From positions 1-64,000 of the forward strand of contig CASHSZ010000033.1 in assembly GCA_949358305.1 (NCBI GenBank): a DNA stretch of 64,000 bases, in the 5' to 3' direction. Source of the DNA: Strigamia acuminata (Eukaryota; Arthropoda; Chilopoda; Geophilomorpha; Linotaeniidae). Numbering within the stretch: the stretch's first letter is position 1; the number at the start of each line of letters is the position of its first letter. Positions 15,265 to 35,063 of the stretch are shown here, piece by piece. A model generated the notes under the pieces. It was not told the DNA's origin and searched no databases. It saw only the letters and a list, made by a program, of their open reading frames with translations. The position numbers and the translations under genes were made by a program.

Positions 15265-18206
15265 CAACCAAATCATCGGTTGGATGTTTCTAAAACTTAC
15301 ATTGGAGCCTTCTATTAAGGTTTAAACACTATTTCTGAACATTCAGAGACATTGGTCTTGTGGTGTTTGTGCTAAGTCAACTGTGATGAGATCAAAAGTC
15401 TATTCTCCCAAATCATCGGTTGGATGTTTCTAAAACTTACATTGGAGCCTTCTACTAAGGTTTAAACACTATTTCTGAACATTCAGAGACATTGGACTTG
15501 TGGTGTTTGTGCTAAGTCAACTGTGATGAGATCAAAAGTCTATTCTCCCAAATCATTGCTTGGATGTTGCTAAAACTTACATTGAAGGCTTCTACTAAGG
15601 TTTAAATACTATTTCTGAACGTTCAGAGACATTGGTCTTGTGGTGTTTGTGCTAAGTCAACTGTGATGAGATCAAAAGTCTATTCAACCAAATCATCGCT
15701 TGGATGTTGCTAAAACTTACATTGAAGGCTTCTACTAAGGTTTAAACACTATTTCTGAACATTCAGAGACATTGGTCTTGTCGTGTTTGTGCTAAGTCAA
15801 CTGTGATGAGATCAAAGTCTATTCTCCCAAATCATTGGTTGGATGTTTCTAAAACTTACATTGGAGCCTTCTACTAAGGTTTAAACACTATTTCTGAACA
15901 TTCAGAGACATTGGTCTTTTGGTGTTTGTGCTAAGTCAACTGTGATGAGATCAAAAGTCTATTCTCCCAAATCATCGGTTGGATGTTTCTAAAACTTACA
16001 TTGGAGCCTTCTACTAAGGTTTAAACACTATTTCTGAACATTCAGAGACATTGGTCTTTTGGTGTTTGTGCTAAGTCAACTGTGATGAGATCAAAAGTCT
16101 ATTCTCCCAAATCATCGGTTGGATGTTTCTAAAACTTACATTGGAGCCTTCTACTAAGGTTTAAACACTATTTCTGAACATTCAGAGACATTGGACTTGT
16201 GGTGTTTGTGTTAAGTCAACTGTGATGAGATCAAAAGTCTATTCTTCCAAATCATTGCTTGGATGTTGCTAAAACTTACATTGAAGGCTTCTACTAAGGT
16301 TTAAATACTATTTCTGAACGTTCAGAGACATTGGTCTTGTGGTGTTTGTGCTAAGTCAACTGTGATGAGATCAAAAGTCTATTCAACCAAATCATCGCTT
16401 GGATGTTGCTAAAACTTACATTGAAGGCTTCTACTAAGGTTTAAACACTATTTCTGAACATTCAGAGACATTGGTCTTGTGGTGTTTGTGCTAAGTCAAC
16501 TGTGATGAGATCAAAAGTCTATTCAACCAAATCATCGGTTGGATGTTTCTAAAACTTACATTGGAGCCTTCTATTAAGGTTTAAACACTATTTCTGAACA
16601 TTCAGAGACATTGGTCTTGTGGTGTTTGTGCTAAGTCAACTGCGATGTGAAATGAGCTCAAAATTTTTTTTTCAAAATTTAATGCTTGGGTGTTGCTAAA
16701 ACTTATATTGAAGGCTTCTACTAAGGTTTAAACACTATTTCTGAACATTCAGAGACATTGGACTTGTGGTGTTTGTGCTAAGTCAACTGTGATGAGATCA
16801 AAAGTCTATTCTCCCAAATCATTGCTTGGATGTTGCTAAAACTTACATTGAAGGCTTCTACTAAGGTTTAAATACTATTTCTGAACGTTCAGAGACATTG
16901 GTCTTGTGGTGTTTGTGCTAAGTCAACTGTGATGAGATCAAAAGTCTATTCAACCAAATCATCGGTTGGATGTTTCTAAAACTTACATTGGAGCCTTCTA
17001 TTAAGGTTTAAACACTATTTCTGAACATTCAGAGACATTGGTCTTGTGGTGTTTGTGCTAAGTCAACTGTGATGAGATCAAAAGTCTATTCTCCCAAATC
17101 ATCGGTTGGATGTTTCTAAAACTTACATTGGAGCCTTCTACTAAGGTTTAAACACTATTTCTGAACATTCAGAGACATTGGACTTGTGGTGTTTGTGCTA
17201 AGTCAACTGTGATGAGATCAAAAGTCTATTCTCCCAAATCATTGCTTGGATGTTGCTAAAACTTACATTGAAGGCTTCTACTAAGGTTTAAATACTATTT
17301 CTGAACGTTCAGAGACATTGGTCTTGTGGTGTTTGTGCTAAGTCAACTGTGATGAGATCAAAAGTCTATTCAACCAAATCATCGCTTGGATGTTGCTAAA
17401 ACTTACATTGAAGGCTTCTACTAAGGTTTAAACACTATTTCTGAACATTCAGAGACATTGGTCTTGTCGTGTTTGTGCTAAGTCAACTGTGATGAGATCA
17501 AAGTCTATTCTCCCAAATCATTGGTTGGATGTTTCTAAAACTTACATTGGAGCCTTCTACTAAGGTTTAAACACTATTTCTGAACATTCAGAGACATTGG
17601 TCTTTTGGTGTTTGTGCTAAGTCAACTGTGATGAGATCAAAAGTCTATTCTCCCAAATCATCGGTTGGATGTTTCTAAAACTTACATTGGAGCCTTCTAC
17701 TAAGGTTTAAACACTATTTCTGAACATTCAGAGACATTGGTCTTTTGGTGTTTGTGCTAAGTCAACTGTGATGAGATCAAAAGTCTATTCTCCCAAATCA
17801 TCGGTTGGATGTTTCTAAAACTTACATTGGAGCCTTCTACTAAGGTTTAAACACTATTTCTGAACATTCAGAGACATTGGACTTGTGGTGTTTGTGTTAA
17901 GTCAACTGTGATGAGATCAAAAGTCTATTCTTCCAAATCATTGCTTGGATGTTGCTAAAACTTACATTGAAGGCTTCTACTAAGGTTTAAATACTATTTC
18001 TGAACGTTCAGAGACATTGGTCTTGTGGTGTTTGTGCTAAGTCAACTGTGATGAGATCAAAAGTCTATTCAACCAAATCATCGCTTGGATGTTGCTAAAA
18101 CTTACATTGAAGGCTTCTACTAAGGTTTAAACACTATTTCTGAACATTCAGAGACATTGGTCTTGTGGTGTTTGTGCTAAGTCAACTGTGATGAGATCAA
18201 AAGTCT
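14908..18206 (+). repeat. 1686-bp tandem higher-order duplication
   Basis: Each copy begins with a type 2 AT-rich monomer (14908 and 16594). TCTATTAAGG (15311 and 16997), TCGTGTTTGT (15781 and 17467) and GTGTTAAGTC (16208 and 17894) all keep the 1686-bp offset. It overlaps the tail of the 2393-bp duplication. The match ends near 18206, where CAACC is replaced by CTCCC. Confidence 0.87.
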
Positions 18207-19294
18207 ATTCTCCCAAATCATCGGTTGGATGTTTCTAAAACTTACATTGGAGCCTTCTACTAAGGTTTAAACACTATTTCTGAACATTCAGAGACATTGG
18301 TCTTTTGGTGTTTGTGCTAAGTCAACTGTGATGAGATCAAAAGTCTATTCTCCCAAATCATCGGTTGGATGTTTCTAAAACTTACATTGGAGCCTTCTAC
18401 TAAGGTTTAAACACTATTTCTGAACATTCAGAGACATTGGTCTTGTGGTGTTTGTGCTAAGTCAACTGTGATGAGATCAAAAGTCTATTCTCCCAAATCA
18501 TTGGTTGGATGTTTCTAAAACTTACATTGGAGCCTTCTACTAAGGTTTAAACACTATTTCTGAACATTCAGAGACATTGGTCTTGTGGTGTTTGTGCTAA
18601 GTCAACTGTGATGAGATCAAAAGTCTATTCTCCCAAATCATTGCTTGGATGTTGCTAAAACTTACATTGAAGGCTTCTACTAAGGTTTAAACACTATTTC
18701 TGAACATTCAGAGACATTGGTCTTGTGGTGTTTGTGCTAAGTCAACTGTGATGAGATCAAAAGTCTATTCTCCCAAATCATCGGTTGGATGTTTCTAAAA
18801 CTTACATTGGAGCCTTCTACTAAGGTTTAAACACTATTTCTGAACATTCAGAGACATTGGTCTTTTGGTGTTTGTGCTAAGTCAACTGTGATGAGATCAA
18901 AAGTCTATTCTCCCAAATCATCAGTTGGATGTTTCTAAAACTTACATTGAAGGCTTCTACTAAGGTTTAAACACTATTTCTGAACATTCAGAGACATTGG
19001 TCTTGTGGTGTTTGTGCTAAGTCAACTGTGATGAGATCAAAAGTCTATTCTCCCAAATCATCCGTTGGATGTTTCTAAAACTTACATTGGAGCCTTCTAC
19101 TAAGGTTTAAACACTATTTCTGAACATTCAGAGACATTGGTCTTGTGGTGTTTGTGCTAAGTCAACTGTGATGAGATCAAAAGTCTATTCTCCCAAATCA
19201 TCGGTTGGATGTTTCTAAAACTTACATTGGAGCCTTCTACTAAGGTTTAAACACTATTTCTGAACATTCAGAGACATTGGACTTGTGGTGTTTG

Positions 19295-19702
19295 TGTTGC
19301 GAGCAAGAACGCAACAAAAAGATCTGGAGATTTCACGTTGTTTATCTTCTGAAAGAGAGAAAAGGCTTTTTAATTTTGTTGTCAAGTTTGAATAGATTTG
19401 CAACTCTTATCTGACATGTCCAGTTGGTTTGCTGCCTTGTTGTCACGATCCTGGAAGTTCAAGGGGGTTGTCACTTCGCTTGCCACACCTGGAATGTTTG
19501 GAAGTTGTGTTTTTAGTCTTTTGGCATTGTTTTATGTGTCTTTTTCACTTGTTTGTGTTATTTCTAGTATTTATAAGTTTTCTCCTGTTTCCAGTTCACT
19601 TGTGAGAGAGATAGGCGTGCATCGGCAAGATGGCCGCCATAGCATAAGTGAGCTGGGAAACAGGAGAACTTGAAATAAGCACAATTGCAGTTTTAGTGCT
19701 TG
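19295..19702 (+). repeat. Outer element 5' LTR, left piece
   Basis: First 408 bp of the outer 5' LTR, matching 33534-33941 with no difference seen by eye. It begins TGTTGCG and has a matching CGCAACA eight bases later, so the LTR tip can fold as a short inverted repeat. An AAGATGGCCGCCAT block at 19627-19640 resembles a YY1/Pho site. The piece ends at the CTTG target site used by the inner element. The 91-codon open frame inside it is probably fortuitous. Confidence 0.93.
19699..19702 (+). repeat. Target site duplication CTTG, left copy
   Basis: The uninterrupted outer LTR reads AGTGCTTGTTTCAC at 33934-33947. At the inner insertion CTTG precedes the TGTTGCTAGC start and is repeated at 26293-26296 after the AGAAACA end, giving a 4-bp duplication. 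This fits BEL/Pao integration, which usually duplicates 4-6 bp. Confidence 0.95.
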
Positions 19703-21060
19703 TGTTGCTAGCAACATAAAGGAAAGCTGCTAAACGTCTTAAAAATTAGTCATCTGGAATTATTAAAAAGGGTTTTTAATATTTATCTTAGATTGGGAAT
19801 TTAATTAGACACTTATCTGAATATAAGTCTTCTTTGAGTTAGTTTGAGTGAATTTCTCAGTACTGGTTGATCTGACCGGATAAATCTGGGAAGAAAAGAG
19901 TTTTTACATTAGTTATTTATCCACTTAGAATTTATTTTCTATCTTGTTTACCTGTGTTATGCATGTTTTGATGTTTCCAAGTGTTTTCCTGTTTCCAGTC
20001 CACTATTGTCAATGTAGTGACAAGGTGTAATGATGCTCTCAGACAGCAAAAGGGTACTAGAATGAGAAATGTATGTTATTATCAGTTTTAAGCTGTTTCA
20101 ATCAATTTCTGTTTGTTTTCTGTATATTACTAACCAATTAAGCGTTATGTTAACTTAGATTGTGTGTAGCCTGTCTGGTGAGCTAATTTCAAGCCTTTTT
20201 ATCTTCCTGCAAGTGATCTCTGTTTACATTGTCGGCCATTACTGTGGGAGTGGTCTACTTGTATCTGTAAAGAGAGGAGAAAATGTTTAATCCCAAAGAG
20301 TTTTTGTGGGTTCTGATTAATAATTAATCACTTAATTATTATGCAATGTAAAAGTGTTAAGTTTAAGATTTATCTGTGTTGATTTATAACTTAACTTCTG
20401 CACTTACTGTAAAGTTGCCAGCTCATTGGTCTAAAATGTCTTTACTTATTCTTTTCTCTATTTTATGAGTTGTTCAGTGTGTTTTAGAGTGAATAATTTA
20501 GTTCTCAATGAGCATTGTGTTTAGAGACTGTTGTTAATGTATACTTTTGCATTTAATGTCAAATACTTGCTGTTAGGCTTATGTGTTTTCAACTATTAAC
20601 TTCTACGGTAGTTTTGTTGTGCCAGCAGTACTTATTTCTCTTTACAAGCACTTAGAGACCTCTGTAACTTTAAGTGCAAGTGTCCTTATACAATGTGGAG
20701 ATAGTTACACTTGTTGTTTCTTATTATTGTTAAAGTGTGACTTCTTTGTAAAATCCTCGTGATTCAATTGTAGTAGTCTTGTTAAGAATTTAGAGAATAA
20801 AATGGTTGCTTTTTATTTCTCTCCAAGTCTCATTTCTCTATACAACCAGAAAGCAATGTGCAGTGAGTAGAAAAATCCTCCTTCCTCCTCCTTGAACTCA
20901 CCAGTGGCAGATCATCATGTGAAGCAGCAAGTTCAAGTCCAGTGTTTGCATTTCTTCAAGTCTTTGGCCAACTTCTGTGTATCAATTTTAGCCAAGCAGC
21001 AGTCAAGTATTGCCGCCCCTCCTTCTGGCCTGGTTGTCGCCTGCGACCTTGCCAGAAACA
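19703..21060 (+). repeat. Inner element 5' LTR
   Basis: 1358-bp LTR with a constant offset of 5232 bp to the 3' copy and no mismatch found by eye. The first 14 bases, TGTTGCTAGCAACA, are a perfect palindrome. It ends CCAGAAACA. A canonical AATAAA lies at 20796-20801, about 260 bp before the LTR end, which places the R/U5 part after it. A GGCCATT near 20234 is a possible YY1/Pho core. No convincing TATA box was seen. No coding region is supported inside. Confidence 0.97.
20796..20801 (+). promoter_or_regulatory. Polyadenylation signal in inner 5' LTR
   Basis: AATAAA in the context GAGAATAAAATGG. The identical copy in the 3' LTR at 26028-26033 is the one expected to end the element transcript. 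Confidence 0.6.
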
Positions 21061-21881
21061 ATTTGGTACCGTGAACCAAGGATTTCTTCCAGTTATCTCA
21101 GTGGACCTTCATGTGTGCTGCAAAATTCATCAGTGGGTTTTGTTCTCAAGCTGTGCAAAGCTTTTATGTGTAAAGTGCCATTGAAGCTGTGCCACTACAG
21201 TGAAGTGTATGCTCTCGTCCGCCTTTCACAGGCAAAAAAGTGGGTTTTTCAAGTTGGATTCTCAAATTGTCAAGATGGTCAAGATGTTTTTCAACTTGGA
21301 TCAAGCAAGGCTTCGAGAGTACGAGCGATCCTGCACGACAATCAATTCCAAACACAACGCAATGTACATCCTACAAGAAGATTTGAAGAAATAATTATTA
21401 AGAATTATTATTTAAATAGAATAATATCCGAATTTGCTGCTGTAATTATTTCAAAAAGAGTTTTTGATTAGAAACTGGTGTAGTTGGGGGGAGAAGAAGT
21501 TTAAGTCTTAACAGTTTGAATAAATTCTCGATTCCAGTTTGTGGAATTTAGAGAATATCCAGTGAATTAGTGAATAATACTAAGCTTTAGTGTTGGTATC
21601 CCAATTTAAAACGAGTATCTAGTCAGAAACTCAATTGTGAAAATAAGAGAATTGTCAATTACCTTTAATTATTGAATTTTGGGGGTTAATTTGCCAATCC
21701 TGTTAACATCCCGTGTGTTTCAATCCTGTTAACAGCTTGTGGATATCCATCCCGTTTTTGTGTGTTCAGTAAATCCTAGAGTGTAAAAGAATTAGACAAT
21801 TTCTTGTTAACCAATTTAGTCAGTTAAGTTGAGTTTGAATCCTGAACTGATCTTTGAATTCTTCATTTCTCGGTGAGGATT
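21061..21881 (+). other. Inner element leader region
   Basis: 821 bp between the 5' LTR and the Gag start. It opens with the candidate primer-binding site. A segment near 21353 (AACACAACGCAATGT) also occurs in the outer leader near 27678, showing that the two leaders are related. A 14-base direct repeat CAATCCTGTTAACA occurs at 21695 and 21721. Short open frames here overlap in several phases and have no recognisable product. Packaging signals would be expected here, but none can be assigned by eye. Confidence 0.75.
21064..21077 (+). promoter_or_regulatory. Candidate primer-binding site, inner element
   Basis: TGGTACCGTGAACC begins three bases after the LTR end. A TGG start complements the CCA end of a tRNA, and the first 11 bases are identical to the corresponding site of the outer element. 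I could not assign the tRNA. Confidence 0.6.
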
Positions 21882-24800
21882 ATGGCTACATTATCCGCTG
21901 CTGATCTCGAGGAAAAGGAGGTCATTTGGAAAGCAAAGGCTCAAGGAGCCGAGGATCTGCTGGGATCTTCAGTCAACATTCTAGACGGAGGAGAGCTGGA
22001 AGCCATGCAAATAACGGTTGACCAGCAATTGAGTGATCTCGCAGACGAATTGAAAGCTCTTAAAGACGAGTCAAAAAGAGAGGACTATTTAGCGGGGCTT
22101 CAACGAATTGAAGACATTAGAACCAGAGTAAATTTATTGAAGCAAAGAGCAAAAGTGTCTGGAAAAATGGCAGGGCAATTTGGTTCCCATCCGGGACAGA
22201 ATTCCAGTTTAAACCAGACGTCCGCTTCATCTAGGAGAAACACGAGATTGCCGAAAACCGACATTGCCAAATTTAGTGGCGATGCAACTGAATATAGAGG
22301 TTTTGCGAATTTATTCGAATCAGCAGTTGATCAGAACACGGAGCTTTCGAACGTGGAAAAGCTTATATATCTGAGGTCATGCTGCACTGGGGCTGCAGAA
22401 TCCGCAATCAAGTCGTACCCAATAACTGATGACGCCTACCCATTAGCGAAAAACACATTGGAGAGTCTATTCGGTTCTGAAAACACGCAGAGAAATGCTA
22501 TTTCAAAGATGATTAGGGAGTCGAAACCCGTTTTCGATCTCTACCCAATCGAGCCACTCAAAGCTCTATTCACGTCATTGGCATCTGCTGTCCGGACCAT
22601 GGCGCAACTGTCTGTGTCAGTTGACACTACTGGAACGTACCTTATTCCAGAACTACTTAGAAAATTTCCACCGGAGATCTCCCAACGTTTTTACCGAAAG
22701 CATCAAGGAAAAGTTGATGATGTTAACGTTTTTCTGGACTTCGTAGCAACCGAGATACAACTGGCTGAATTGTCGGAAGAAAGCGTTCTCCTTAAGCGCG
22801 CTCATCTGAAGAAGTCAGAAAAATTTGAGAAAACTTCAAAGGAAACAAGAGAAAGACCAACTGGAACCATGTCCTCATTCGTGACTTCCGAGAATGGAAA
22901 ATTGAGTATGAATTCCAAGTCAAATCCAAACCGCAAACCCGCCTGCGCTTATTGTGATGGTGATCACGCACACGCAAATTGTGATGCGGATCTCGATGTA
23001 CCGGCGAGGATCGAAATAGTGAAGAAGAAACGACTTTGTTTCAACTGCTTGAGATATAACCACACAGCCAAAGAATGTACCGTGAAGTTTTGTTGTCGCT
23101 TGTGTGGTGGAAGACATCACACATCGATCTGCAACAAAAACAACAAAGAAAAAGCGATTACACCAAAAGAAGAAAACGTGTCTACTAATGTATCGCTTAC
23201 CGAGTCGGTGGAGATTCAACTGATGGTCTTCACTGCTCTTTTTGTGAAGAAAAATGGAGACATGTACCCCGTCCGCGGATTACTAGATCCAGGAAGCCAT
23301 CGCTCCTACGTCACGAAGAGACTAGTAAATAAATTCCGGATGCAAAAGATCGAGACACTACACACGATGACACAGTGTCTGCTCAACAAAAAGCCAGTTC
23401 CGACGACACATGATGTCTTTAGATTCGAACTACAATCAAGACACGGAACGGAAAAGACATCAATCCTTGCATTAGAAACCGACACGCTCCCGAAAGTCAA
23501 AGGGATAATTGGAGCAGAAGCCATAAAGCAGGTCCAATCACTCGGACTTGAGATGGCTGAGATACATCCGTCAGAATCGGAAGACATTGACGTCTTATTA
23601 GGAAGCAACGCATGGTGGAAGATTTGTCAAGGTGGAAGCCGAAAAATCAACGACGAGTTGGGATTAATGGAGACAATTTTTGGGTGGATTCTAAACGGTC
23701 GACTGAAACCAAACAACCCGCTTGAAGAAAACATGGCAGCGTGCAACATTTCTTGCATGGCGGTCGAGTCCAAAGAAGAAGTGATCTCAAATCAACCTGA
23801 AAATGACGAAAACAAAATAGTCCAATTAATTCCGAAATCACTGCCCAACATGAATGGCGAACCCGGTGTGAATAAACAGACAGACGTCACACCTTCTTGT
23901 TTTGCCGCGAGCCTCTCCAGTGGTCTGGAGAAAGAGGAACTGGACACCACCCTCCAAAAAACGAAAAAGTCGTTCAAGGATGGAGGATTGGTCAACAGAA
24001 CTCCAAGCTCGGACATGAAGCCGGAATTACGAGGGCGAAATCAGTTAGAGTCAGGGAGAAAGAACGTCGAATTACTTACAAACCAAGTGCCCAGTTTACC
24101 CAAATTGTGTGCAATCGTGAGATGGAGTGGAAACGTGATTCTGAATTTCTGGAAAAAGAAAATTGATTTGTCAACCAATCAAAAGGGAATTCATCTCATC
24201 ATTGGTCCAATGTATGCGGGGAAAACGACCAAGTTATTGAAGCTTTTAGAAAAGGAAGAGAAGACGTCGTCCCTGCTAATTAAACACTCCAATGACGATC
24301 GTTACAGTAAAACCGAAGTCGTGACCCACGACGGTCATCGACGAGAAGCAATCGCGACCAGTAGCCTAATCAATGCTGTGGAAAAAACGAAATTAGTGAA
24401 GGCAATCGGAATTGACGAAGGACAGTTTTTTCCCGACATTTTTACTTTTTCAAATGAAATGGCTGAGCAAAAGAAAAAGGTAATAGTCGCCGCATTAGAC
24501 GTCGACTTCAAGAGGAAGCCATTTGATCAGATATCCAAGTTAGTTCCACTAGCCGAGTCTGTTGTGAAACTACAAGCAAAATGTTATTTTTGCGGAGATA
24601 AAGCTGAATTTTCAAGACGAATTTCGCACGAAACCAGAGTCAAGATGATAGGAGGGATCGACAAATACAAACCAACCTGTCGAGTATGTTTCTCAAAGCC
24701 CATGAAGTCCCTAGAGACGAAAAGGAAAATCATCAACGGAATTATTCGACTTAGTTGTATGATTGTCAACCGAAGAATACCTCCGTGGATACCAAATTTG

Positions 24801-24899
24801 ATCCGTCAAAGAATCATGCCACCCAGAGTGGAATACGAAAAGGTGAAAGAGGTCTCCCAAATATTATCCTCAAAGACCAGAAGTAATCAAACTAAATGA
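21882..24899 (+). CDS. Gag-aspartic protease-thymidine kinase polyprotein
   Basis: A 1005-aa ORF from ATG 21882, which has A at -3 and G at +4; the outer gag also opens ATGGCTACA. The frame is open three codons further upstream from a GTG, which I do not use. Residues about 122-290 are a BEL/Pao Gag (DUF1759-like). Three zinc knuckles follow: C355/C358/H362/C367, C386/C389/H394/C399 and C405/C408/H412/C417. The DUF1758-type aspartic protease has LLDPGS (D469) and DVLLGSNAWW (570-579), then TIFGW near 598. Homology to the outer polyprotein stops near residue 635, just before the segment leading into RT. A low-complexity polar linker (about 635-765) joins a complete thymidine kinase (about 769-941) and a basic 64-residue tail of unknown role. 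RT, RNase H and integrase are absent. Released by the protease or left fused, the kinase would make dTMP from thymidine, in cytosol or particle. The reading frame is intact. Confidence 0.96.
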   Translation: MATLSAADLEEKEVIWKAKAQGAEDLLGSSVNILDGGELEAMQITVDQQLSDLADELKALKDESKREDYLAGLQRIEDIRTRVNLLKQRAKVSGKMAGQFGSHPGQNSSLNQTSASSRRNTRLPKTDIAKFSGDATEYRGFANLFESAVDQNTELSNVEKLIYLRSCCTGAAESAIKSYPITDDAYPLAKNTLESLFGSENTQRNAISKMIRESKPVFDLYPIEPLKALFTSLASAVRTMAQLSVSVDTTGTYLIPELLRKFPPEISQRFYRKHQGKVDDVNVFLDFVATEIQLAELSEESVLLKRAHLKKSEKFEKTSKETRERPTGTMSSFVTSENGKLSMNSKSNPNRKPACAYCDGDHAHANCDADLDVPARIEIVKKKRLCFNCLRYNHTAKECTVKFCCRLCGGRHHTSICNKNNKEKAITPKEENVSTNVSLTESVEIQLMVFTALFVKKNGDMYPVRGLLDPGSHRSYVTKRLVNKFRMQKIETLHTMTQCLLNKKPVPTTHDVFRFELQSRHGTEKTSILALETDTLPKVKGIIGAEAIKQVQSLGLEMAEIHPSESEDIDVLLGSNAWWKICQGGSRKINDELGLMETIFGWILNGRLKPNNPLEENMAACNISCMAVESKEEVISNQPENDENKIVQLIPKSLPNMNGEPGVNKQTDVTPSCFAASLSSGLEKEELDTTLQKTKKSFKDGGLVNRTPSSDMKPELRGRNQLESGRKNVELLTNQVPSLPKLCAIVRWSGNVILNFWKKKIDLSTNQKGIHLIIGPMYAGKTTKLLKLLEKEEKTSSLLIKHSNDDRYSKTEVVTHDGHRREAIATSSLINAVEKTKLVKAIGIDEGQFFPDIFTFSNEMAEQKKKVIVAALDVDFKRKPFDQISKLVPLAESVVKLQAKCYFCGDKAEFSRRISHETRVKMIGGIDKYKPTCRVCFSKPMKSLETKRKIINGIIRLSCMIVNRRIPPWIPNLIRQRIMPPRVEYEKVKEVSQILSSKTRSNQTK
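24186..24704 (+). other. Captured TK1-type thymidine kinase domain
   Basis: Part of the 21882-24899 ORF (polyprotein residues 769-941). Seen directly: the P-loop GPMYAGKT (775-782), DDRY and THDG in the region that follows, the DEGQFFPD motif with catalytic Glu at 846, ALDVDFKRKPF with aromatics F876 and F881, LVPLAESVVKL, GGIDKY with Tyr929, and a four-cysteine zinc site C901/C904/C933/C936. Spacings equal those of human TK1: 55 residues from the catalytic Glu to the first zinc Cys, 32 between the Cys pairs, and 30 from Glu to the first pocket Phe. This is a type II thymidine kinase (thymidine + ATP to dTMP + ADP). No KEN degron, which in vertebrate TK1 drives mitotic destruction, lies in the tail. 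The domain has no introns, so capture through RNA or from an intronless gene is likely. Animal or viral origin is undecided. Confidence 0.95.
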
Positions 24900-24934
24900 T
24901 GGGTTGTTCGCACTTTCTTTTCGCCGGCAATCTA
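24900..24934 (+). other. Inner 3' untranslated spacer and plus-strand primer region
   Basis: Only 35 bp separate the stop codon from the 3' LTR. There is no classical purine tract. The end, TTCTTTTCGCCGGCAATCTA, resembles the same place in the outer element (CTTCTTTTTTCGGCTGGCAGCGA), so a shared atypical plus-strand priming signal is likely. Confidence 0.5.
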
Positions 24935-26292
24935 TGTTGCTAGCAACATAAAGGAAAGCTGCTAAACGTCTTAAAAATTAGTCATCTGGAATTATTAAAA
25001 AGGGTTTTTAATATTTATCTTAGATTGGGAATTTAATTAGACACTTATCTGAATATAAGTCTTCTTTGAGTTAGTTTGAGTGAATTTCTCAGTACTGGTT
25101 GATCTGACCGGATAAATCTGGGAAGAAAAGAGTTTTTACATTAGTTATTTATCCACTTAGAATTTATTTTCTATCTTGTTTACCTGTGTTATGCATGTTT
25201 TGATGTTTCCAAGTGTTTTCCTGTTTCCAGTCCACTATTGTCAATGTAGTGACAAGGTGTAATGATGCTCTCAGACAGCAAAAGGGTACTAGAATGAGAA
25301 ATGTATGTTATTATCAGTTTTAAGCTGTTTCAATCAATTTCTGTTTGTTTTCTGTATATTACTAACCAATTAAGCGTTATGTTAACTTAGATTGTGTGTA
25401 GCCTGTCTGGTGAGCTAATTTCAAGCCTTTTTATCTTCCTGCAAGTGATCTCTGTTTACATTGTCGGCCATTACTGTGGGAGTGGTCTACTTGTATCTGT
25501 AAAGAGAGGAGAAAATGTTTAATCCCAAAGAGTTTTTGTGGGTTCTGATTAATAATTAATCACTTAATTATTATGCAATGTAAAAGTGTTAAGTTTAAGA
25601 TTTATCTGTGTTGATTTATAACTTAACTTCTGCACTTACTGTAAAGTTGCCAGCTCATTGGTCTAAAATGTCTTTACTTATTCTTTTCTCTATTTTATGA
25701 GTTGTTCAGTGTGTTTTAGAGTGAATAATTTAGTTCTCAATGAGCATTGTGTTTAGAGACTGTTGTTAATGTATACTTTTGCATTTAATGTCAAATACTT
25801 GCTGTTAGGCTTATGTGTTTTCAACTATTAACTTCTACGGTAGTTTTGTTGTGCCAGCAGTACTTATTTCTCTTTACAAGCACTTAGAGACCTCTGTAAC
25901 TTTAAGTGCAAGTGTCCTTATACAATGTGGAGATAGTTACACTTGTTGTTTCTTATTATTGTTAAAGTGTGACTTCTTTGTAAAATCCTCGTGATTCAAT
26001 TGTAGTAGTCTTGTTAAGAATTTAGAGAATAAAATGGTTGCTTTTTATTTCTCTCCAAGTCTCATTTCTCTATACAACCAGAAAGCAATGTGCAGTGAGT
26101 AGAAAAATCCTCCTTCCTCCTCCTTGAACTCACCAGTGGCAGATCATCATGTGAAGCAGCAAGTTCAAGTCCAGTGTTTGCATTTCTTCAAGTCTTTGGC
26201 CAACTTCTGTGTATCAATTTTAGCCAAGCAGCAGTCAAGTATTGCCGCCCCTCCTTCTGGCCTGGTTGTCGCCTGCGACCTTGCCAGAAACA
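24935..26292 (+). repeat. Inner element 3' LTR
   Basis: 1358 bp, apparently identical to 19703-21060. It ends CCAGAAACA and is followed by the CTTG target duplication. The AATAAA at 26028-26033 is the expected 3' processing signal. It lies directly upstream of the remaining outer LTR piece and points toward the outer gag-pol, so any promoter in it could drive that gene. Confidence 0.97.
26028..26033 (+). promoter_or_regulatory. Polyadenylation signal in inner 3' LTR
   Basis: AATAAA, the functional-position copy for the inner element transcript. It sits 265 bp before the LTR end. Confidence 0.65.
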
Positions 26293-26296
26293 CTTG
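26293..26296 (+). repeat. Target site duplication CTTG, right copy
   Basis: Second copy of the CTTG target. The outer LTR continues directly with TTTCACTGG, as at 33942. Confidence 0.95.
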
Positions 26297-27418
26297 TTTC
26301 ACTGGTAATTTAATTTATACTAACTTGTATTGGTGTTTAAGGTATTCCACAGGTGTCTTGGGTCGCTGGATGGACGTTGGACATCGTTTGTGAGCGTTTG
26401 CGAGCGTCGGGCGTGAGCGCACGCCTTGCGACGCCTCTCGTGGTCGTATGGGTCCTGCAAATGAGTTGAATCGGTCGGGTTTCAATGTCCAAGCACTGGG
26501 AAAGTTGTACTGACCGTTCTAGGACGCAGATCCATCGTTGAGAAGGCCTGTGAGTCGCCCGCGACCTTGTCTGGCTCCATTCACGTCATTTTAGCAGTTG
26601 CATGGTCGCCATCTTAGATTTGGTGCTGCACTGGTGCCCTGTCATTGTTTCTTTTGGGGTTTTAATGGAACCTGGACATAGGGAATATTTACTAGTTATT
26701 GTTTGTATATTTACCAATATTAGTTGATGTTAATCTAAGCTTTTACTTTTGTTATTGCATGGTTGTTAAGGGGTTAAAACTGTGACACGTTGCGCCCTCT
26801 TTTGGTGGTGATTGGGTTTGGGCTCAGCATTGTGTTTTGAGTGTAACTAATGTTAGTTTTAGCCTTTGAATTATTTGTTAAGTTTAAGTGAAGTGCTGTT
26901 TGCACAGGTCATACTGTTATCAAGGTGTTAGGTTAAGTTTTGTCTTTATTTATGTTAAGTTTGACATCTGTTGTAGATATACGGAAACCTTGTCGGCACT
27001 ATTGTTATTATTCAAATCTGTATTGTTTGGTCACTGACATTTATTGTAATCAGGTGACCAGTTGTTAAGAGTAGGTTGCTAAAGAAGCAACAGTTGTTAT
27101 CAGTTGTTAAGTATTAAAACCAGTTGTTATTTTTCCTCCTTCTTTGGATAATTTATTCCTGGGTTTCTTTTACTTCAACATTCATGATGACTTGTGAGTA
27201 GAGAGCTTTGCCTGCTCTCCTCCTCCCTGGGAGCACGGAATTTCTACCCAGCAGCTAAAGAGGTTTTGCCAATCACTTCATCTAAATGCAGTCAGGCCTA
27301 GTTTCATGCAGTCAGGCCTAACCCTTCTTCAAGTTAGGCTTATGCTCAGAGAGAGGATTTCAACTTGTCTCTTCAACCACTATACAGTCTCGGGCGGTTT
27401 CCAGAGTTTGGTGACCAA
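26297..27418 (+). repeat. Outer element 5' LTR, right piece
   Basis: 1122 bp matching 33942-35063 at a constant offset of 7645 bp, with no difference seen. ATTAAA at 27113-27118 is a candidate weak polyadenylation signal. A short direct repeat ATGCAGTCAGGCCTA lies near 27290-27321, and GCCATCTT at 26608-26615 is a possible YY1/Pho core. Homology to the 3' copy stops after GGTGACCAA, so the true LTR end is uncertain. Confidence 0.92.
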
Positions 27419-27523: not shown

Positions 27524-28203
27524 AAGAGGTCATTCGGACGTTCAGCAAGTGATTCAAGTGGTTTGGTGCGTGCCAGTTGGTTTGTTTGTACGGCTGGTTC
27601 CGTGAGCGACCGGCATCAAGTGCGCACGCCAGAGAGTCACGTGAGAGCGGACATTGACGTCCTGAGTCTGCCAAGTCAAACACAACGCAATGTGCAAGTT
27701 GAACAGCTACAGCCTGAAAGAAGAAGAACAGTTTTAGTTTATAAAGTGTATTTTGGTGGGCTGTTTTTTGGGTTTTTTGATGTGTCCCTTCTGGGGGGAG
27801 GGGAAGTGTGCATTTTCGTGTTTAAGTTAAAGTTTAAGTTTTTCTCCACTATAACTGCTTAGGCAGGGGAGAATTAGATAGCCTAGTAGTTAAAAGGGTC
27901 TGCTTGACAGCTTAGAGTTTTTGGGTGTTGCATCACTCAAATCCTTAGGAGTTTAGAGAGTTTAGCAGTTAACAGGAATTAGTCTACTATAGGAATTAGA
28001 GACTGGGTGTTGCGCCACTCAGATCTTTAGTAGCATAGAGTTTACAGTGAGTCTGTCTGTATATCATTCAGATCAATAGCGGTTTAGTTGAGCAGTTAGT
28101 GTATTTGGTCATTGTTTGTCCAAATATCACCTGTGTTTAGAGTTGTGTGTCTTTGGTTTTTGACTGACTGATTGTCTTCACTTTCTGACATTCCAGGTTT
28201 GAC

Positions 28204-31200
28204 ATGGCTACAGGAGGTGGATCAAGGTCAGGTTCAGGGAGAACAACGCCAACAACGGTTGAGCAACAACCGCCGGAAGAAATGGACGTGTTGTCTGGGA
28301 GGTTCACGACTTTGGGGATCTCTTTGGACGCGCTTTTGAGAAGGTCCTTGACACTAAAAGATACCGGCGAGCTGGAAGCTGTAGAAATGGCTGCAGATGA
28401 ACAGATGATGAGAATGATAAACGACCTGAACACGATGCAGCCCAACCTGACAAGAGATCAGTACTTGGCAAATCTAAGGGAAATCGAAGAGTTAGAGACA
28501 CCGATTTCGGTTCTTAAGCACAGAACCCGAATGTCAAAGAAGTTCGTGACGCATTGGTCAGCAAATCCAGCAAATGCTTCAGCGTTGACGACCAGTACGT
28601 CTCAGAGTTCGATTTTGAACCAGACCTTGTCGCAATCGACAAGAAGGCATAATAATGCAAAGCTTCCTAAGTTGGAAATGCGGAAATTCAATGGAGATGT
28701 GACGACATTTCGTCCCTTCCTAAGCAGCTTTGATTCTGCTGTTCACAGCAACCCTGATTTATCAGAAATTGAGAAGTTGCAATACTTGCAGTCGCTGTGC
28801 ACGGGAGAAGCTGCCATGCTGATCTCTGCATTCCCTTTAGTGGACGGTAATTACAATTTGGCAAGAGAAGAGTTGGAACGTTCCTACGGGGACGATGAAG
28901 CCCAGAGAGTGGCATTGGTCAAGTCCATAAGGGATATGAGACAGGTTACGGAATTGCATCCGGTCAAAGCTGTCCGTACACAGTTGACCAAGGTGTCCAC
29001 TGCTATCCGCTTGCTGGAGCAGTTGAGCGTTCCAGTACAGACTGCTGGTCTGCTTCTGGCACCCGACGTGCTGAGGAAATTTCCACCTGCCATGGTGATG
29101 AGGTTTTACCAGCAGCAAGGGGCTAAGACCTCAAATTTAGTGACAATCTTGAATTTTTTTGCGGCTGAAGTTCAGCTCTTGGAGCAGATGGAAGATGTCA
29201 TGGGGGCAGGAGGTCTTGCAACTAAAAAAGACAAGTCTGGAAGTTCCGACAAGGATAAGGATCAACGCAAGGGCACGATGTCCACCTGCGCCACGTCCAA
29301 AAAAGCCAAAGAGTCTTTTAGCCCAAAGCTGATCGTGGGAAGCGCAATTTGCATTTTTTGCAAAGAAGGTCATGCTAACACTTTCTGTAGGAAGGAAATG
29401 AGCGTGGCAGAGAAGACCACGATCATTCAACAGAACCGACTTTGCTTCAATTGCCTGCAAGAAGGACACAGGGCAATGCGGTGCCAGGTTAAAACCAGCT
29501 GCAGGACTTGCGGCGGACGACATCATTCGTCCATCTGCAGGAAATTGAACACAGGAAGTGGAGGTGGGATAGAGAAGCCCAAGGACGTGAGCGCGAACGT
29601 TTCCTTGGCGATCTCCTCAACACTTCAGTTGATGATATTCACAGCGGAGTTAAAAACAAAGTCTGGAGGTTCGCACACGATACGTGGCATGTTAGATCCG
29701 GGCAGCCATCGGTCCTACATTTTAAAGAGTGTAGCCGACCGGATACGGTTGAAGAGTTGCGGGTCAATCGAAGCCACAGCCCAACGCCTCAATGAAGAGG
29801 ATAATGCTGGATCGACGTCTTACGACGTTTACAAGCTACTCCTTCAGTCTAGACACGGAGCCAGAGAGCTCAAGGTGACGGCTTTAAGTGCAAGAAGCCT
29901 ACCGCATGTGTATGGGATAGCCAGCCCTGATACCATTCAGAAAGTTAAAGATTTGGGGTTCGAATTGGCTGAGGACTTACCTTCGACTGCAGGCAATGTT
30001 GATATCTTGCTTGGAGTTGATGTTTGGTGGGAAATCTGCCTTGACGGACGAAAGCGATTGGATAACCGCTTGGGTTTGGTCAATACCATTTTTGGGTGGG
30101 TGTTGTCAGGAGCCGCTGGGTCGACAGATGTCTTCTCCGAGAGCTCGCGTGACGTTTCTTGCTGCAACACCTGTGAGATTAAGACTGACCGTGACTTGGA
30201 AAAGCTTTGGAGTTTGGAGGCTGTTGGAATTACCGCTGGCGAACGCGATTCAGATTTTGTTCGAGATCGCTTTGAGAAGTCGCACAAGCGAATGGATGAT
30301 GGTTGCTACCAAGTTTGTTTGCCCTTTAACGATAAGATCGGGGCTTTGGAGTCGAACTGGGAGTTGGCTCTGAATCAACTATCACATACGCTTAGGCGAA
30401 TTGATAGTAACAGCGACCACAAGGAACGTTATAACAAAGCCATGTGGGACTACGTCAAGGAAGAGCACGCGGAAGTAGTACCTCTTGCAGAGAGATACAA
30501 GAAAACTGGAGTTTATGTTATTCCGCACCATCCAGTGATCAAGGAGGACCGGGAAACGACCAAGTTCCGTGTCGTTTTCAACGCGTCGTCGGCGAAGAAG
30601 GGGCTACCTTCGCTGAACGACTGTCTGTATCCTGGCCCTTCTTTAAATCCGGATATTGTCCCAGTTATGATCCGTTTTCGCCTTTTTTGTGTAGTGGCGA
30701 TAGCAGACATCAAGCAGGCTTTCCTGCAAGTGCTGATTAATCCTGACCACTGCGATTTTTTGCGGTTCCTTTGGGTCTCAGAAGAATATTTCCAAGAAGG
30801 ATATTCTTGGCAGAATTTGTGGGATCACCTGGTCGTTTTAAGAATGATAGTCGTCCCTTTCGGGGTGAATTCTTCGCCATTCTTGTTGTGCGCTGTCATC
30901 CGCGCGCAAGGGCGATTGTATTTGGTGCTTTTCCCCAAAGAGGCAGACGCCCTCGATAAGGGCATCTACATGGACGACTTGACGTCCGGGGCCGATGGAA
31001 CCCAAGAGACAGTTACGCACTGTGTCAATCTACGCAGGATCCTTGACGAGGGAAAGATGCCTCTCGTCAAGTGGGCATCATCAAAGGCAGATGTCTTTGA
31101 CGCACTCAAAGACAAGGATTTCCACATGCGTGCAGACAAGTTTGAAGATCTAGGAGTTGTCAAGATGCTGGGCATCCTTTGGAGCGTCCAAGATGATACG

Positions 31201-33480
31201 CTAATGTTCAGGATCCCAACCGGTGTTGAGATTCCCCAGTCAAGGAGGGGCATTCTGTCATTATTGGCATCAGTCTTCGACCCCTTGGGGTTGATAGCTC
31301 CAGTCATTTTGCGGATGAAGCTACTTTTACAGAGTATGTGGGGTCGCGACATCAAATGGGATGACATAATCTCAGAAGAAAACCGAGAGATAGTGGTCAA
31401 ATGGTACGCCGATCTTCAGCGCCTCACCGAAGCCCGGGTGAAGCGTTGGATGGGGACGTACTCGGGCCAAGAAATGGACATTGACGTCTTTTGCGACGCA
31501 AGTCCACAGGCGTACGGGTGCGCAATCTACGTTCGAGCTGCGTCAGGCGCGACCCAACTGCTCTTGAGCAAAAGCCGAATTGCCCCCACCACCAAATTGA
31601 CTTTGCCACGCCTAGAATTGACCGCAACTGTTGTTGGAGTCCGGATGGTGGAGTACATCCTAGAGGATTTCCTACCAGGTTATCCAGTTGGGAAGATAAG
31701 GTATTACTCGGACTCAATGGTTGCGCTCGGGTGGTTGAAGTCTGATAAGAACAGGTGGAAGCCATATGTCTCCAACAGAGTGGCAGAAGTTCTTGAAAAG
31801 TCAAGTCCGAGTCAGTGGGCATACATCCCGACGGACAGGAATCCAGCGGACGTATTGACACGCCCATGCGAGGCAAAGAACCTTTTGGCCAACCGTCTCT
31901 GGTGGGACGGGCCCGGTCAGTTGGAAGACCTCGCAGACGAACCTGAGGACGTTGACCTCCCAATGGAAGAGGCAAAAAAGGAAAAGGTAGCTTTGGTTGC
32001 GTCAGATGGAGAAGCGCATATGTGCGAGGTTTTCAAGCGATTTAGTAGTTTTAATCGCCTCGTGCGAGTTTTCGCGCTCATGCGGCGCTGGCTTCCTTTT
32101 TTCGCCCGCGGGAGGGACCTCGAGGTTCTCGAGATAGAAGTTGCCGAAGAAAGAGTCATCCGCTTGGCCCAGGTCTTGAGTTTTCCAGACGAAAGACAAG
32201 CCGCAATGTTGAAAGAGAAAGTGGCAAAGGGCTCTATCCTGAAAAATTTCGACGTTTTTCTGGATGAGAGAGATTTACTAAGACTAAGGAGCCGTCTAGG
32301 GAAGTCAGCGCTTCCCTTCGACGAGGCATTTCCCATCATTTTACACCCGGATAGTTGGGTAACAAGACTAATCATCAAGAAGGTCCACTTACAGCTCCTG
32401 CATGGTGAGCTGAGTGAGACGTTTTACCGGTTGAGAGACAAGTATTGGATTGTAAGAGGACGCCGAACGGTCAAGGCTGTGATCCGGAGTTGCTTGGCCT
32501 GCAAACGAGAGCGGTTGGAACGCAATAACCCAGCCACTGGTGACCCTCCTATGGAGCGCGTCACGCCGGCAGCCCCGTTCCAGCATACAGGAATTGACCA
32601 CCTCGGCCCTCTCACAGTCAAGCATAAGGAGAAAGGAAGAAAAGTCTATATTCTGTTGTTTACCTGCCTAGTAACACGAGCGATCCATTTGGAAGTCTCT
32701 GAGAACCTTTCGGTGGAAAAGTTCCTTCTGGCCTTCCGTCGTTTCGGCGCCAGATTTGGGTACCCGGCGAAAGTGTTCTCCGACAACTCCAAAACTTTCG
32801 AGCTAGGAAGCCAGGAGATACAGTCGTGGGGTAAATTGCTGACCAAGGATGGGATCCGGACGTTCCTTTCGGAGAAGAGAGTGGTTTGGTCGTTCATCCC
32901 ACCATTGTCACCTTGGGCTGGAGGAGCCTGGGAGAGACTTGTGCGTTCGGTAAAAGATAAACTACGTAAGATGCTGCTGCGTAGGACTGTAGACTTGGAG
33001 ACGCTTCAGACGCTAGCCGTCGAGATAAGCTCCGTGCTTAACTCAAGGCCCCTGTCTTACGTGCATGAGGAGGTTGACGGCGGGAGAATTCTCAGCCCTG
33101 AGAACTTTCTCACTGGAGGAATGCCCAAGTGGGTTATCAACCGTCCACTGCACGCGATACAGAAGAAAGACCTACGGAGATTGGATAGAAAAAGACGACT
33201 TTTCGTTTGGGAGTTCTGGCGGATTTGGCGCGAGAGTTACCTGAAACAGCTAAGAAATTTTCATGAAGTCAAGGGTGACTCCCGTTTCAAGAATCCGGAA
33301 GTCGACCAGATAGTATTGCTGGAAAAAGTCGGCTGCAATCCGTACTTCTGGCCGCTGGCACGGGTCATCGAAGTCCTACCAGGCGAAGATGGTTTTGTGC
33401 GCGTCGTGAGAGTGGTTACAGCCAATGGAAAGGAATATCGACGCTCGGTCAAACACGTAAGGGCTTTGGAGCTGGACTAG
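28204..33480 (+). CDS. gag-pol: BEL/Pao Gag-Pol polyprotein, intact
   Basis: 1758 aa, one frame, ATG with G at -3 and +4. Gag (DUF1759-like) spans about 153-300. Zinc knuckles are C383/C386/H390/C395, C414/C417/H422/C427 and C433/C436/H440/C445. The aspartic protease has MLDPGS (D498) and DILLGVDVWW (600-609). Reverse transcriptase: KFRVVFNAS (787-795), catalytic D835 in ADIKQAF, PFGVNSSPF (885-893), YMDD (922-925). RNase H: D1098, E1138, D1170, D1216. Integrase: zinc-binding H1395/H1400/C1430/C1433, catalytic D1465, D1527, E1577. A DUF5641-like C-terminal domain (about 1660-1756) ends the protein. All catalytic residues expected for copying and integrating element RNA are present and no stop or frameshift interrupts it. 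The stretch between FLW (855) and PFG (885) looks longer than I expect for the family. The 5' LTR is broken by the inner element, so its own promoter is probably disturbed. It could supply enzymes in trans to the inner element. Confidence 0.97.
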   Translation: MATGGGSRSGSGRTTPTTVEQQPPEEMDVLSGRFTTLGISLDALLRRSLTLKDTGELEAVEMAADEQMMRMINDLNTMQPNLTRDQYLANLREIEELETPISVLKHRTRMSKKFVTHWSANPANASALTTSTSQSSILNQTLSQSTRRHNNAKLPKLEMRKFNGDVTTFRPFLSSFDSAVHSNPDLSEIEKLQYLQSLCTGEAAMLISAFPLVDGNYNLAREELERSYGDDEAQRVALVKSIRDMRQVTELHPVKAVRTQLTKVSTAIRLLEQLSVPVQTAGLLLAPDVLRKFPPAMVMRFYQQQGAKTSNLVTILNFFAAEVQLLEQMEDVMGAGGLATKKDKSGSSDKDKDQRKGTMSTCATSKKAKESFSPKLIVGSAICIFCKEGHANTFCRKEMSVAEKTTIIQQNRLCFNCLQEGHRAMRCQVKTSCRTCGGRHHSSICRKLNTGSGGGIEKPKDVSANVSLAISSTLQLMIFTAELKTKSGGSHTIRGMLDPGSHRSYILKSVADRIRLKSCGSIEATAQRLNEEDNAGSTSYDVYKLLLQSRHGARELKVTALSARSLPHVYGIASPDTIQKVKDLGFELAEDLPSTAGNVDILLGVDVWWEICLDGRKRLDNRLGLVNTIFGWVLSGAAGSTDVFSESSRDVSCCNTCEIKTDRDLEKLWSLEAVGITAGERDSDFVRDRFEKSHKRMDDGCYQVCLPFNDKIGALESNWELALNQLSHTLRRIDSNSDHKERYNKAMWDYVKEEHAEVVPLAERYKKTGVYVIPHHPVIKEDRETTKFRVVFNASSAKKGLPSLNDCLYPGPSLNPDIVPVMIRFRLFCVVAIADIKQAFLQVLINPDHCDFLRFLWVSEEYFQEGYSWQNLWDHLVVLRMIVVPFGVNSSPFLLCAVIRAQGRLYLVLFPKEADALDKGIYMDDLTSGADGTQETVTHCVNLRRILDEGKMPLVKWASSKADVFDALKDKDFHMRADKFEDLGVVKMLGILWSVQDDTLMFRIPTGVEIPQSRRGILSLLASVFDPLGLIAPVILRMKLLLQSMWGRDIKWDDIISEENREIVVKWYADLQRLTEARVKRWMGTYSGQEMDIDVFCDASPQAYGCAIYVRAASGATQLLLSKSRIAPTTKLTLPRLELTATVVGVRMVEYILEDFLPGYPVGKIRYYSDSMVALGWLKSDKNRWKPYVSNRVAEVLEKSSPSQWAYIPTDRNPADVLTRPCEAKNLLANRLWWDGPGQLEDLADEPEDVDLPMEEAKKEKVALVASDGEAHMCEVFKRFSSFNRLVRVFALMRRWLPFFARGRDLEVLEIEVAEERVIRLAQVLSFPDERQAAMLKEKVAKGSILKNFDVFLDERDLLRLRSRLGKSALPFDEAFPIILHPDSWVTRLIIKKVHLQLLHGELSETFYRLRDKYWIVRGRRTVKAVIRSCLACKRERLERNNPATGDPPMERVTPAAPFQHTGIDHLGPLTVKHKEKGRKVYILLFTCLVTRAIHLEVSENLSVEKFLLAFRRFGARFGYPAKVFSDNSKTFELGSQEIQSWGKLLTKDGIRTFLSEKRVVWSFIPPLSPWAGGAWERLVRSVKDKLRKMLLRRTVDLETLQTLAVEISSVLNSRPLSYVHEEVDGGRILSPENFLTGGMPKWVINRPLHAIQKKDLRRLDRKRRLFVWEFWRIWRESYLKQLRNFHEVKGDSRFKNPEVDQIVLLEKVGCNPYFWPLARVIEVLPGEDGFVRVVRVVTANGKEYRRSVKHVRALELD

Positions 33481-33533: not shown

Positions 33534-35063
33534 TGTTGCGAGCAAGAACGCAACAAAAAGATCTGGAGATTTCACGTTGTTTATCTTCTGAAAGAGAGAA
33601 AAGGCTTTTTAATTTTGTTGTCAAGTTTGAATAGATTTGCAACTCTTATCTGACATGTCCAGTTGGTTTGCTGCCTTGTTGTCACGATCCTGGAAGTTCA
33701 AGGGGGTTGTCACTTCGCTTGCCACACCTGGAATGTTTGGAAGTTGTGTTTTTAGTCTTTTGGCATTGTTTTATGTGTCTTTTTCACTTGTTTGTGTTAT
33801 TTCTAGTATTTATAAGTTTTCTCCTGTTTCCAGTTCACTTGTGAGAGAGATAGGCGTGCATCGGCAAGATGGCCGCCATAGCATAAGTGAGCTGGGAAAC
33901 AGGAGAACTTGAAATAAGCACAATTGCAGTTTTAGTGCTTGTTTCACTGGTAATTTAATTTATACTAACTTGTATTGGTGTTTAAGGTATTCCACAGGTG
34001 TCTTGGGTCGCTGGATGGACGTTGGACATCGTTTGTGAGCGTTTGCGAGCGTCGGGCGTGAGCGCACGCCTTGCGACGCCTCTCGTGGTCGTATGGGTCC
34101 TGCAAATGAGTTGAATCGGTCGGGTTTCAATGTCCAAGCACTGGGAAAGTTGTACTGACCGTTCTAGGACGCAGATCCATCGTTGAGAAGGCCTGTGAGT
34201 CGCCCGCGACCTTGTCTGGCTCCATTCACGTCATTTTAGCAGTTGCATGGTCGCCATCTTAGATTTGGTGCTGCACTGGTGCCCTGTCATTGTTTCTTTT
34301 GGGGTTTTAATGGAACCTGGACATAGGGAATATTTACTAGTTATTGTTTGTATATTTACCAATATTAGTTGATGTTAATCTAAGCTTTTACTTTTGTTAT
34401 TGCATGGTTGTTAAGGGGTTAAAACTGTGACACGTTGCGCCCTCTTTTGGTGGTGATTGGGTTTGGGCTCAGCATTGTGTTTTGAGTGTAACTAATGTTA
34501 GTTTTAGCCTTTGAATTATTTGTTAAGTTTAAGTGAAGTGCTGTTTGCACAGGTCATACTGTTATCAAGGTGTTAGGTTAAGTTTTGTCTTTATTTATGT
34601 TAAGTTTGACATCTGTTGTAGATATACGGAAACCTTGTCGGCACTATTGTTATTATTCAAATCTGTATTGTTTGGTCACTGACATTTATTGTAATCAGGT
34701 GACCAGTTGTTAAGAGTAGGTTGCTAAAGAAGCAACAGTTGTTATCAGTTGTTAAGTATTAAAACCAGTTGTTATTTTTCCTCCTTCTTTGGATAATTTA
34801 TTCCTGGGTTTCTTTTACTTCAACATTCATGATGACTTGTGAGTAGAGAGCTTTGCCTGCTCTCCTCCTCCCTGGGAGCACGGAATTTCTACCCAGCAGC
34901 TAAAGAGGTTTTGCCAATCACTTCATCTAAATGCAGTCAGGCCTAGTTTCATGCAGTCAGGCCTAACCCTTCTTCAAGTTAGGCTTATGCTCAGAGAGAG
35001 GATTTCAACTTGTCTCTTCAACCACTATACAGTCTCGGGCGGTTTCCAGAGTTTGGTGACCAA
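33534..35063 (+). repeat. Outer element 3' LTR (part matching the 5' copy)
   Basis: 1530 bp equal to the two 5' LTR pieces joined (408 + 1122 bp) without any indel, which shows that the inner element inserted cleanly. It begins TGTTGCG. ATTAAA at 34758-34763 is a candidate weak polyadenylation signal. The match ends after GGTGACCAA, and the sequence then differs from the 5' copy. Confidence 0.94.

Follow-up and report, generated by a model that had tools for sequence, protein, structure and literature searches.

The window considered here, that is, the whole stretch of DNA analysed, comprises 64,000 nucleotides of the centipede Strigamia acuminata (assembly GCA_949358305.1, contig CASHSZ010000033.1, positions 1 to 64,000 of the forward strand). 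It holds a long terminal repeat (LTR) retroelement of the BEL/Pao type, referred to as element A, which is inserted within the 5′ LTR of a second, full BEL/Pao element (element B). A single open frame of element A joins a Gag, an aspartic protease (PR) and a type II (TK1-like) thymidine kinase (TK), and frames of this build recur across the genome in two families. Judged from the sequence, this anatomy and the multi-copy status of the Gag-PR-TK element are close to certain. The features of element A are the following, with all coordinates given in the window:

19699..19702, no strand: left copy of the 4-bp target-site duplication CTTG, also within the LTR of element B
19703..21060, +: 5′ LTR of element A, 1358 bp, TGTTGC...AAACA, identical to 24935-26292
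21062..21081, +: primer-binding-site-like motif TTTGGTACCGTGAACCAAGG, directly 3′ of the 5′ LTR (putative function, no tRNA match)
21882..24899, +: Gag-PR-TK frame, 1005 aa (open reading frame, stop-to-stop from 21858)
22272..22697, +: Gag core, Pfam DUF1759, residues 131-272, E 2.1e-17
22944..23132, +: three C2HC zinc knuckles, residues 355-417 (motif reading)
23172..23741, +: aspartic protease region, LLDPGSH at residue 467 (alignment to element B, motif)
23742..24176, +: linker, poorly conserved (25% identity between families, by inter-family comparison)
24189..24692, +: type II (TK1-like) TK, residues 770-937, Pfam TK E 2.4e-54 (Pfam, alignment, model and motifs)
24717..24899, +: C-terminal tail after the TK, RIPPWIPNLIRQR (sequence comparison)
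24911..24934, +: pyrimidine-rich stretch just 5′ of the 3′ LTR, at the position expected of a polypurine tract (similar in family 2 and element B)
24935..26292, +: 3′ LTR of element A (pairwise identity with the 5′ LTR)
26293..26296, no strand: right copy of the 4-bp target-site duplication CTTG (boundary reading)

Anatomy of element A

The frame is open from stop to stop over 21858-24899 on the forward strand, and the ATG at 21882 gives a protein of 1005 amino acids (aa). The first-pass annotation, drawn from the letters alone, had described a single frame with a BEL/Pao Gag, three zinc knuckles, a DPGS protease and a complete TK1-type TK, a description that Pfam, motifs and alignment confirm at 21882-24899. 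DUF1759, which Pfam detects in element A, is the Gag domain of the BEL/Pao type, and the first residues of the C2HC knuckles are 355, 386 and 405. No Pfam protease model matched element A up to an E-value of 10; the protease is recognised as one of the BEL/Pao type by its LLDPGSH motif and by an alignment that runs through the protease of element B. This Gag-PR alignment (38% identity over 615 residues) ends near residue 620, past the protease, and the TK of element A stands at the position where pol starts in element B.

The TK domain carries the complete motif set of type II TKs, namely the P-loop, DEGQFF, four zinc cysteines and the thymidine-binding loop (GPMYAGKT at residue 775, DEGQFF at 845, CxxC...CxxC at 901 and IGGIDKY at 923). 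It aligns to human TK1 (2wvj) with an E-value of 1.7e-41, residues 768-939 of the query being matched to residues 19-191 of the 193 in the chain. The predicted model of the domain (predicted local distance difference test, pLDDT, 89.2; predicted template modelling score, pTM, 0.86) displays the TK1 fold, and its best structural matches are type II TKs: the top Foldseek match is 1w4r, a type II TK with bound deoxythymidine triphosphate (dTTP; E 5.4e-20), and human TK1 (1xbt) is among the next. In the fold search, the element TK is 38-45% identical to the chains of human TK1 and of poxvirus TKs, and it shares with these cellular and poxvirus type II enzymes all the motifs and the same predicted fold. 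It differs from them in being part of a Gag polyprotein and in its place in the TK tree, where it lies on a long branch outside the animal/protist/poxvirus clade. In this tree of 64 TKs, rooted at the midpoint, families 1 and 2 of the element group weakly together (93/47), and both of them, as well as the other high-copy TK groups of the genome (89/85), fall on long branches outside the animal/protist/poxvirus TK clade (98/98). A tree with branches of such length points to no particular TK donor.

The two LTRs agree without any mismatch over 1358 bp, so that element A, at 19703-26292, is regarded as recently active. It thus combines an LTR pair with TG...CA ends and a short target duplication, and a second case of the same arrangement is provided by the copy L022 (1009 aa), which lies within satellite and whose LTRs are identical over 1355 bp as masked, with GTTG as target-site duplication. 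Genome-wide, the LTR of element A is found at 99-100% in all 40 scored places, out of 122 candidates. The motif TTTGGTACCGTGAACCAAGG occurs at 111 genome places with up to two mismatches, compared with none for the reversed control, and in family 2 the motif is similarly placed after the LTR. The stretch at 24911-24934 was also considered as a polypurine tract; this was not upheld, the stretch being pyrimidine-rich on this strand.

Frames of at least 120 aa inside element A gave no Pfam match to reverse transcriptase (RT) or integrase (IN), and no further frame of that length has a Pfam match there. Likewise, the RT and IN of element B had no tblastn match inside the copies L022 and L025, nor between the TK frame and the 3′ LTR of the copies L020 and L021. 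Element A does not show the BEL/Pao RT-RNase H-integrase of an autonomous member and, having no recognisable RT or integrase, is therefore classed as non-autonomous and in need of mobilisation in trans; its dependence on a helper is very probable. Identical LTRs in an element without pol would likewise point to mobilisation in trans. With BEL/Pao elements (Belpaoviridae), element A has in common the DUF1759 Gag, the three knuckles, the DPGS protease, the TG...CA LTRs and a 4-bp target-site duplication, but a TK is found instead of RT and integrase, neither of which was detected. Of the first-pass interpretation, the in-frame fusion of a complete TK to a BEL/Pao Gag-protease holds, and many copies of it exist; what had been missed is that no RT or integrase is recognisable and that the TK takes the place of pol.

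The C-terminal tail behind the TK has 60 residues, the first part of which is found again in family 2 and in a family that retains a TK relic, described below. The possibility that the tail derives from the pre-integrase region of pol was examined and rejected (BLASTP E 0.76; profile comparison E 0.88, at a different place).

Genomic copies, selection and known relatives

The genome searched comprises 237.5 Mb in 157 contigs; on its mitochondrial contig, COX1 is open throughout under the invertebrate code and appears to be arthropod, perhaps chelicerate. The searches scored 150 matches of 205 candidates for the TK and, in a second run, 98 of 1224 for Gag. Grouped by frame length, the scored TK matches include 34 with a frame of 1013 aa, 13 with one of 1009 aa, 32 with one of 995 aa and five with one of 1002 aa (84 of 150), the rest falling in shorter frames and other repeat groups. 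Every one of these 84 has a partner Gag match in a frame of equal length, located upstream by less than 3 kb and on the matching strand, and together they are spread over 17 contigs. Five of the 84 frames were read (the window, L020, L021, L022 and L025), and all five are Gag-PR-TK. The further copies with Gag and TK in one frame that the first-pass annotation had envisaged are thus found at 84 places, in two diverged families. The same annotation had named an assembly join, with TK-less copies elsewhere, as the way in which it might be wrong. This fails for the element's own family, where 47 of the 54 Gag matches with at least 85% identity lie in 1013- or 1009-aa frames that also hold the TK, the other seven being shorter frames. 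Among Gag matches at 56-57% identity, 37 of 41 are in frames of 995 or 1002 aa.

Family 1 is made up of the 1013- and 1009-aa frames and family 2 of the 995- and 1002-aa frames, with a protein identity of 53% between them. In both families the 3′ LTR comes close behind the TK frame. The 3′ LTRs of family 2 measure 965 bp (L020) and 715 bp (L021), and its 5′ LTRs end just before the motif TTTGGTACCGTGA; an integrase fragment resembling that of element B lies at L020 5664-6359, just outside the 3′ LTR of this copy. The DEGQFF pattern of the TK motif occurs at 175 genome places, against one for the reversed control. Of four odd places inspected with a cellular TK gene of the host in mind, two (L043 and L044) look like broken TK relics and two (L042 and L045) are without other notable TK similarity; a spliced host TK gene may lie beyond these places and beyond the candidates scored in two TK searches (150 of 205 and 150 of 202). 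On contig C1, all 11 TK rows of families 1 and 2 are confined to the last 2.75 of 67 Mb (chance under uniform placement 6e-16, for a boundary chosen from the data themselves), and the two degraded relics L043 and L044 lie elsewhere on the same contig.

The P-loop, DEGQFF, the zinc cysteines and the thymidine loop are kept in both families. Identity between the families amounts to 54% in the TK, 56% in Gag, 63% in the protease and 25% in the linker, and synonymous sites are saturated between them for Gag, protease and TK. Since the TK is about as conserved as Gag and the linker is not, the TK is, by this comparison, under selection. Within family 1, synonymous and non-synonymous changes in the TK number 13 and 11 between element A and L022 (p 4e-4), 23 and 17 between element A and L026 (p 3e-7), and 24 and 17 between L022 and L026 (p 9e-8), three pairwise tests that use the same three copies and are not independent. 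L026 (1963-4787) is itself a mosaic copy, with a Gag far from that of element A (synonymous divergence, dS, above 1.4) and a TK near to it (dS 0.15-0.23). Recombination has probably moved the TK between Gag lineages, to judge from this copy.

No element like this Gag-PR element with a TK was found in the proteins and literature searched. In the titles and abstract openings of the literature, no TK was found in an LTR retrotransposon. Residues 760-1005, used as a query for Gag-TK fusions against partial protein libraries, gave 2843 candidates (about 553-1758 aa), none at E ≤0.001, and a weak scan of viral contigs, with two Gag peptides as patterns, gave 94 matches, none confirmed. Annotation pipelines often omit transposon frames.

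Among plants, Gag-only non-autonomous LTR elements of the TR-GAG and BARE-2 type encode Gag, are devoid of pol and need a helper, features that element A shares. To our knowledge, these plant elements carry no metabolic enzyme and do not belong to BEL/Pao. Other LTR retroelements encode a dUTPase, an enzyme that prevents uracil from entering DNA; a TK would be a complementary strategy, in that it makes the nucleotide that is missing, and in element A it occupies pol's place. Planarian Burro has a dUTPase between PR and RT, and the same position is reported in fungal and rotifer LTR elements (PMC6431247); ERV3 lineages with a dUTPase and host-gene capture in crocodilian endogenous retroviruses (ERVs) are described in PMC4299795. 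Burro, the ERV3 lineages and non-primate lentiviral ERVs resemble element A in having a captured nucleotide-metabolism enzyme within the polyprotein (PMC6431247, PMC4299795). They differ from it in encoding RT, and in that their enzyme is a dUTPase rather than a TK. By analogy, the Burro-type dUTPase between PR and RT is the nearest precedent for the TK of the element.

Element B, the proposed mechanism and rival readings

Element B, in which element A is nested, has the following features:

19295..19702, +: first part of the 5′ LTR, broken by element A, identical to the 3′ LTR of element B
26297..27418, +: second part of the 5′ LTR (comparison with the 3′ LTR)
28189..33480, +: Gag-Pol frame, 1763 aa, open, of the candidate helper type (Pfam)
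33534..35063, +: 3′ LTR, extent matching the 5′ LTR (LTR comparison)

In element B, Pfam places DUF1759, Peptidase_A17 (Pao), Integrase_H2C2 and DUF5641 above the cut-off and RVT_1 and DUF1758 below it, and lists no RNase H or integrase-core model. No target duplication was seen around its LTRs. RT matches of the B type number 84 (83 of 1049 candidates scored); 54 of the 84 are in frames of 1763-1770 aa, and two of these 54 contain a stop. They are found largely on the same contig stretches as the TK elements. In addition, element A, family 2 and element B resemble one another in their LTR tips, in the pyrimidine-rich stretch before the 3′ LTR and in the TTTGGTACCGTGA motif. Another candidate for an autonomous partner, a wider-spaced pair of the LTR of element A on contig C127, was rejected, as it is a copy of element A with an insert of about 1 kb in the TK.

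On balance, we favour, with some reserve, the view that element A belongs to BEL/Pao, is non-autonomous and has been active recently, and that its one frame encodes Gag, protease and an active TK that replaces RT and integrase and supplies deoxythymidine monophosphate (dTMP). The RNA of element A would enter particles containing its own Gag-PR-TK as well as Gag-Pol encoded by full BEL/Pao elements, B for example, and the latter would provide reverse transcription and integration in trans. The TK would be brought into the particle by its fusion to Gag, or be released by the protease, and would phosphorylate thymidine to dTMP, raising dTTP where or when this is limiting for reverse transcription. 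The predicted enzyme is likely to be catalytically active; the odds that its role lies in providing dTTP for reverse transcription we take to be even. Raising dTTP and being packaged through Gag would both fit the anatomy and the evidence for selection. A further step would be a division of labour in which Gag-PR-TK brings the dTTP-making enzyme into shared particles and the full BEL/Pao elements bring polymerase and integrase, making element A a metabolic partner instead of a plain parasite; this we consider unlikely. Should the TK be packaged and active, it would become testable whether the supply of dTTP limits retrotransposition in animals, and a pol-less element could persist by carrying a metabolic enzyme.

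Several observations weigh against the reading of element A as a helper-dependent element with a working TK. The linker and tail of element A show a ratio of non-synonymous to synonymous divergence (dN/dS) of at least 0.6 in the comparison with L022, and its TK and that of L025 are about four bases apart, most of the changes being non-synonymous (dN/dS 0.83). In element B, the TTTGGTACCGTGA motif is situated about 55 bases beyond the LTR end as drawn and does not adjoin the LTR, and blastn found no DNA match between elements A and B; element B itself is a candidate helper only. Relatives with a decayed or replaced TK also exist. One of them, L041 (892 aa, open frame), keeps Gag-PR and the tail, and its TK is reduced to a relic of the P-loop region, without DEGQFF and without the second set of zinc cysteines. 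The family to which it belongs is present in at least two places, one of which was read, with 47% Gag identity. Its post-protease stretch is matched by the profile of the element TKs (tail included) at E 2.5e-10 and by a general TK profile at E 0.0024, both beating 1000 of 1000 shuffles, and the TK was probably present before L041 split off and then decayed there. In the other, L040 on contig C14 (76-2769, minus strand, 897 aa; at least one place, 50% Gag identity), a hydrophobic, membrane-like tail replaces the TK, and no TK profile matches. With a relic in L041 and no TK in L040, the TK is therefore not always needed; as these relatives suggest, it is useful but at times dispensable. L040, whose Gag-PR belongs to the same clade, represents another cargo at the TK position.

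In a rival scenario, the TK acts cell-wide and not in the particle. The Gag frame would then be an expression vehicle from which the protease frees the TK, and the dTTP produced would help any retroelement, element B included. The long, poorly conserved linker that precedes the TK could be cleaved, and dUTPases occupy different positions across retroelements (PMC6431247, PMC4299795). However, a benefit common to all elements would not favour its carriers, and in two families the in-frame link of the TK to Gag has been preserved, so that a cell-wide role, although possible, is rather doubtful. Less probable still is that the TK fold has been kept for a non-catalytic job, for example in Gag multimerisation or in the binding of nucleotides or nucleic acids. 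TK1 forms tetramers, and the L041 family has retained the tail and the P-loop-region relic in spite of lacking DEGQFF and the second zinc-cysteine set; yet the catalytic, zinc and thymidine-loop motifs are all kept in both families, and a scaffold would not need all of them.

The existence of relatives without a working TK, one of them at no fewer than two places, might also suggest that the TK is a captured passenger that brings no benefit, Gag and cis signals being sufficient for mobilisation in trans. Such a passenger would hardly be expected to be roughly on a par with Gag in conservation where synonymous divergence is saturated, with the linker not so conserved, or to show an excess of synonymous change within family 1, and by these figures the passenger reading appears largely refuted and quite improbable. 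As for an assembly join, or a single copy of the element into which a cellular TK happened to insert, no point in its favour was found. It is refuted, with a probability that is negligible, by the long frames that combine Gag and TK at 84 places, distributed over 17 contigs, and by the LTRs and target duplications that enclose the whole both in the window and at L022 (GTTG).

Satellite setting and other thymidine kinase repeats

Around elements A and B, the window consists of a 140-bp satellite, which is masked over 1-19296 and 35552-64000. The DNA at 35064-35551, which separates the 3′ LTR of element B from the satellite, is not satellite itself and is unexplained. TK elements and full BEL/Pao elements are concentrated in common stretches of the contigs, nested in satellite, a pattern that may reflect targeting or survival.

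Apart from families 1 and 2, the genome harbours further TK groups. A second high-copy TK, encoded in a single open frame of 190 aa, accounts for 40 of the 150 scored TK rows (L016, L017 and L028; L016:4742-5308, minus strand). It sits in repeated units of at least 8.5 kb that are 99.7% identical between L016 and L028 and are dispersed along the chromosomes. Two scanned frames adjoining the TK in L016 gave no convincing Pfam family; the repeat unit is possibly a large transposon or an endogenous DNA virus.

A third group (L009-L011, L013-L015, L019 and L027; 13 scored rows) has TK frames of 169-269 aa and belongs to another large repeat unit, itself rich in internal repeats, read-through of which yields frames of 1118 and 1999 aa. 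These two frames had been considered as TK-pol fusions, a possibility that was rejected because the stretches are open in all six frames, as expected of repeats, and the TK is that of this other repeat group. Finally, a fourth group (L012 and L018; 221-239 aa, five scored rows) is among the best matches, at 51-52%, to a spider TK used as query (150 scored of 202 candidates), and the TK of the host itself may be a close relative of this group.

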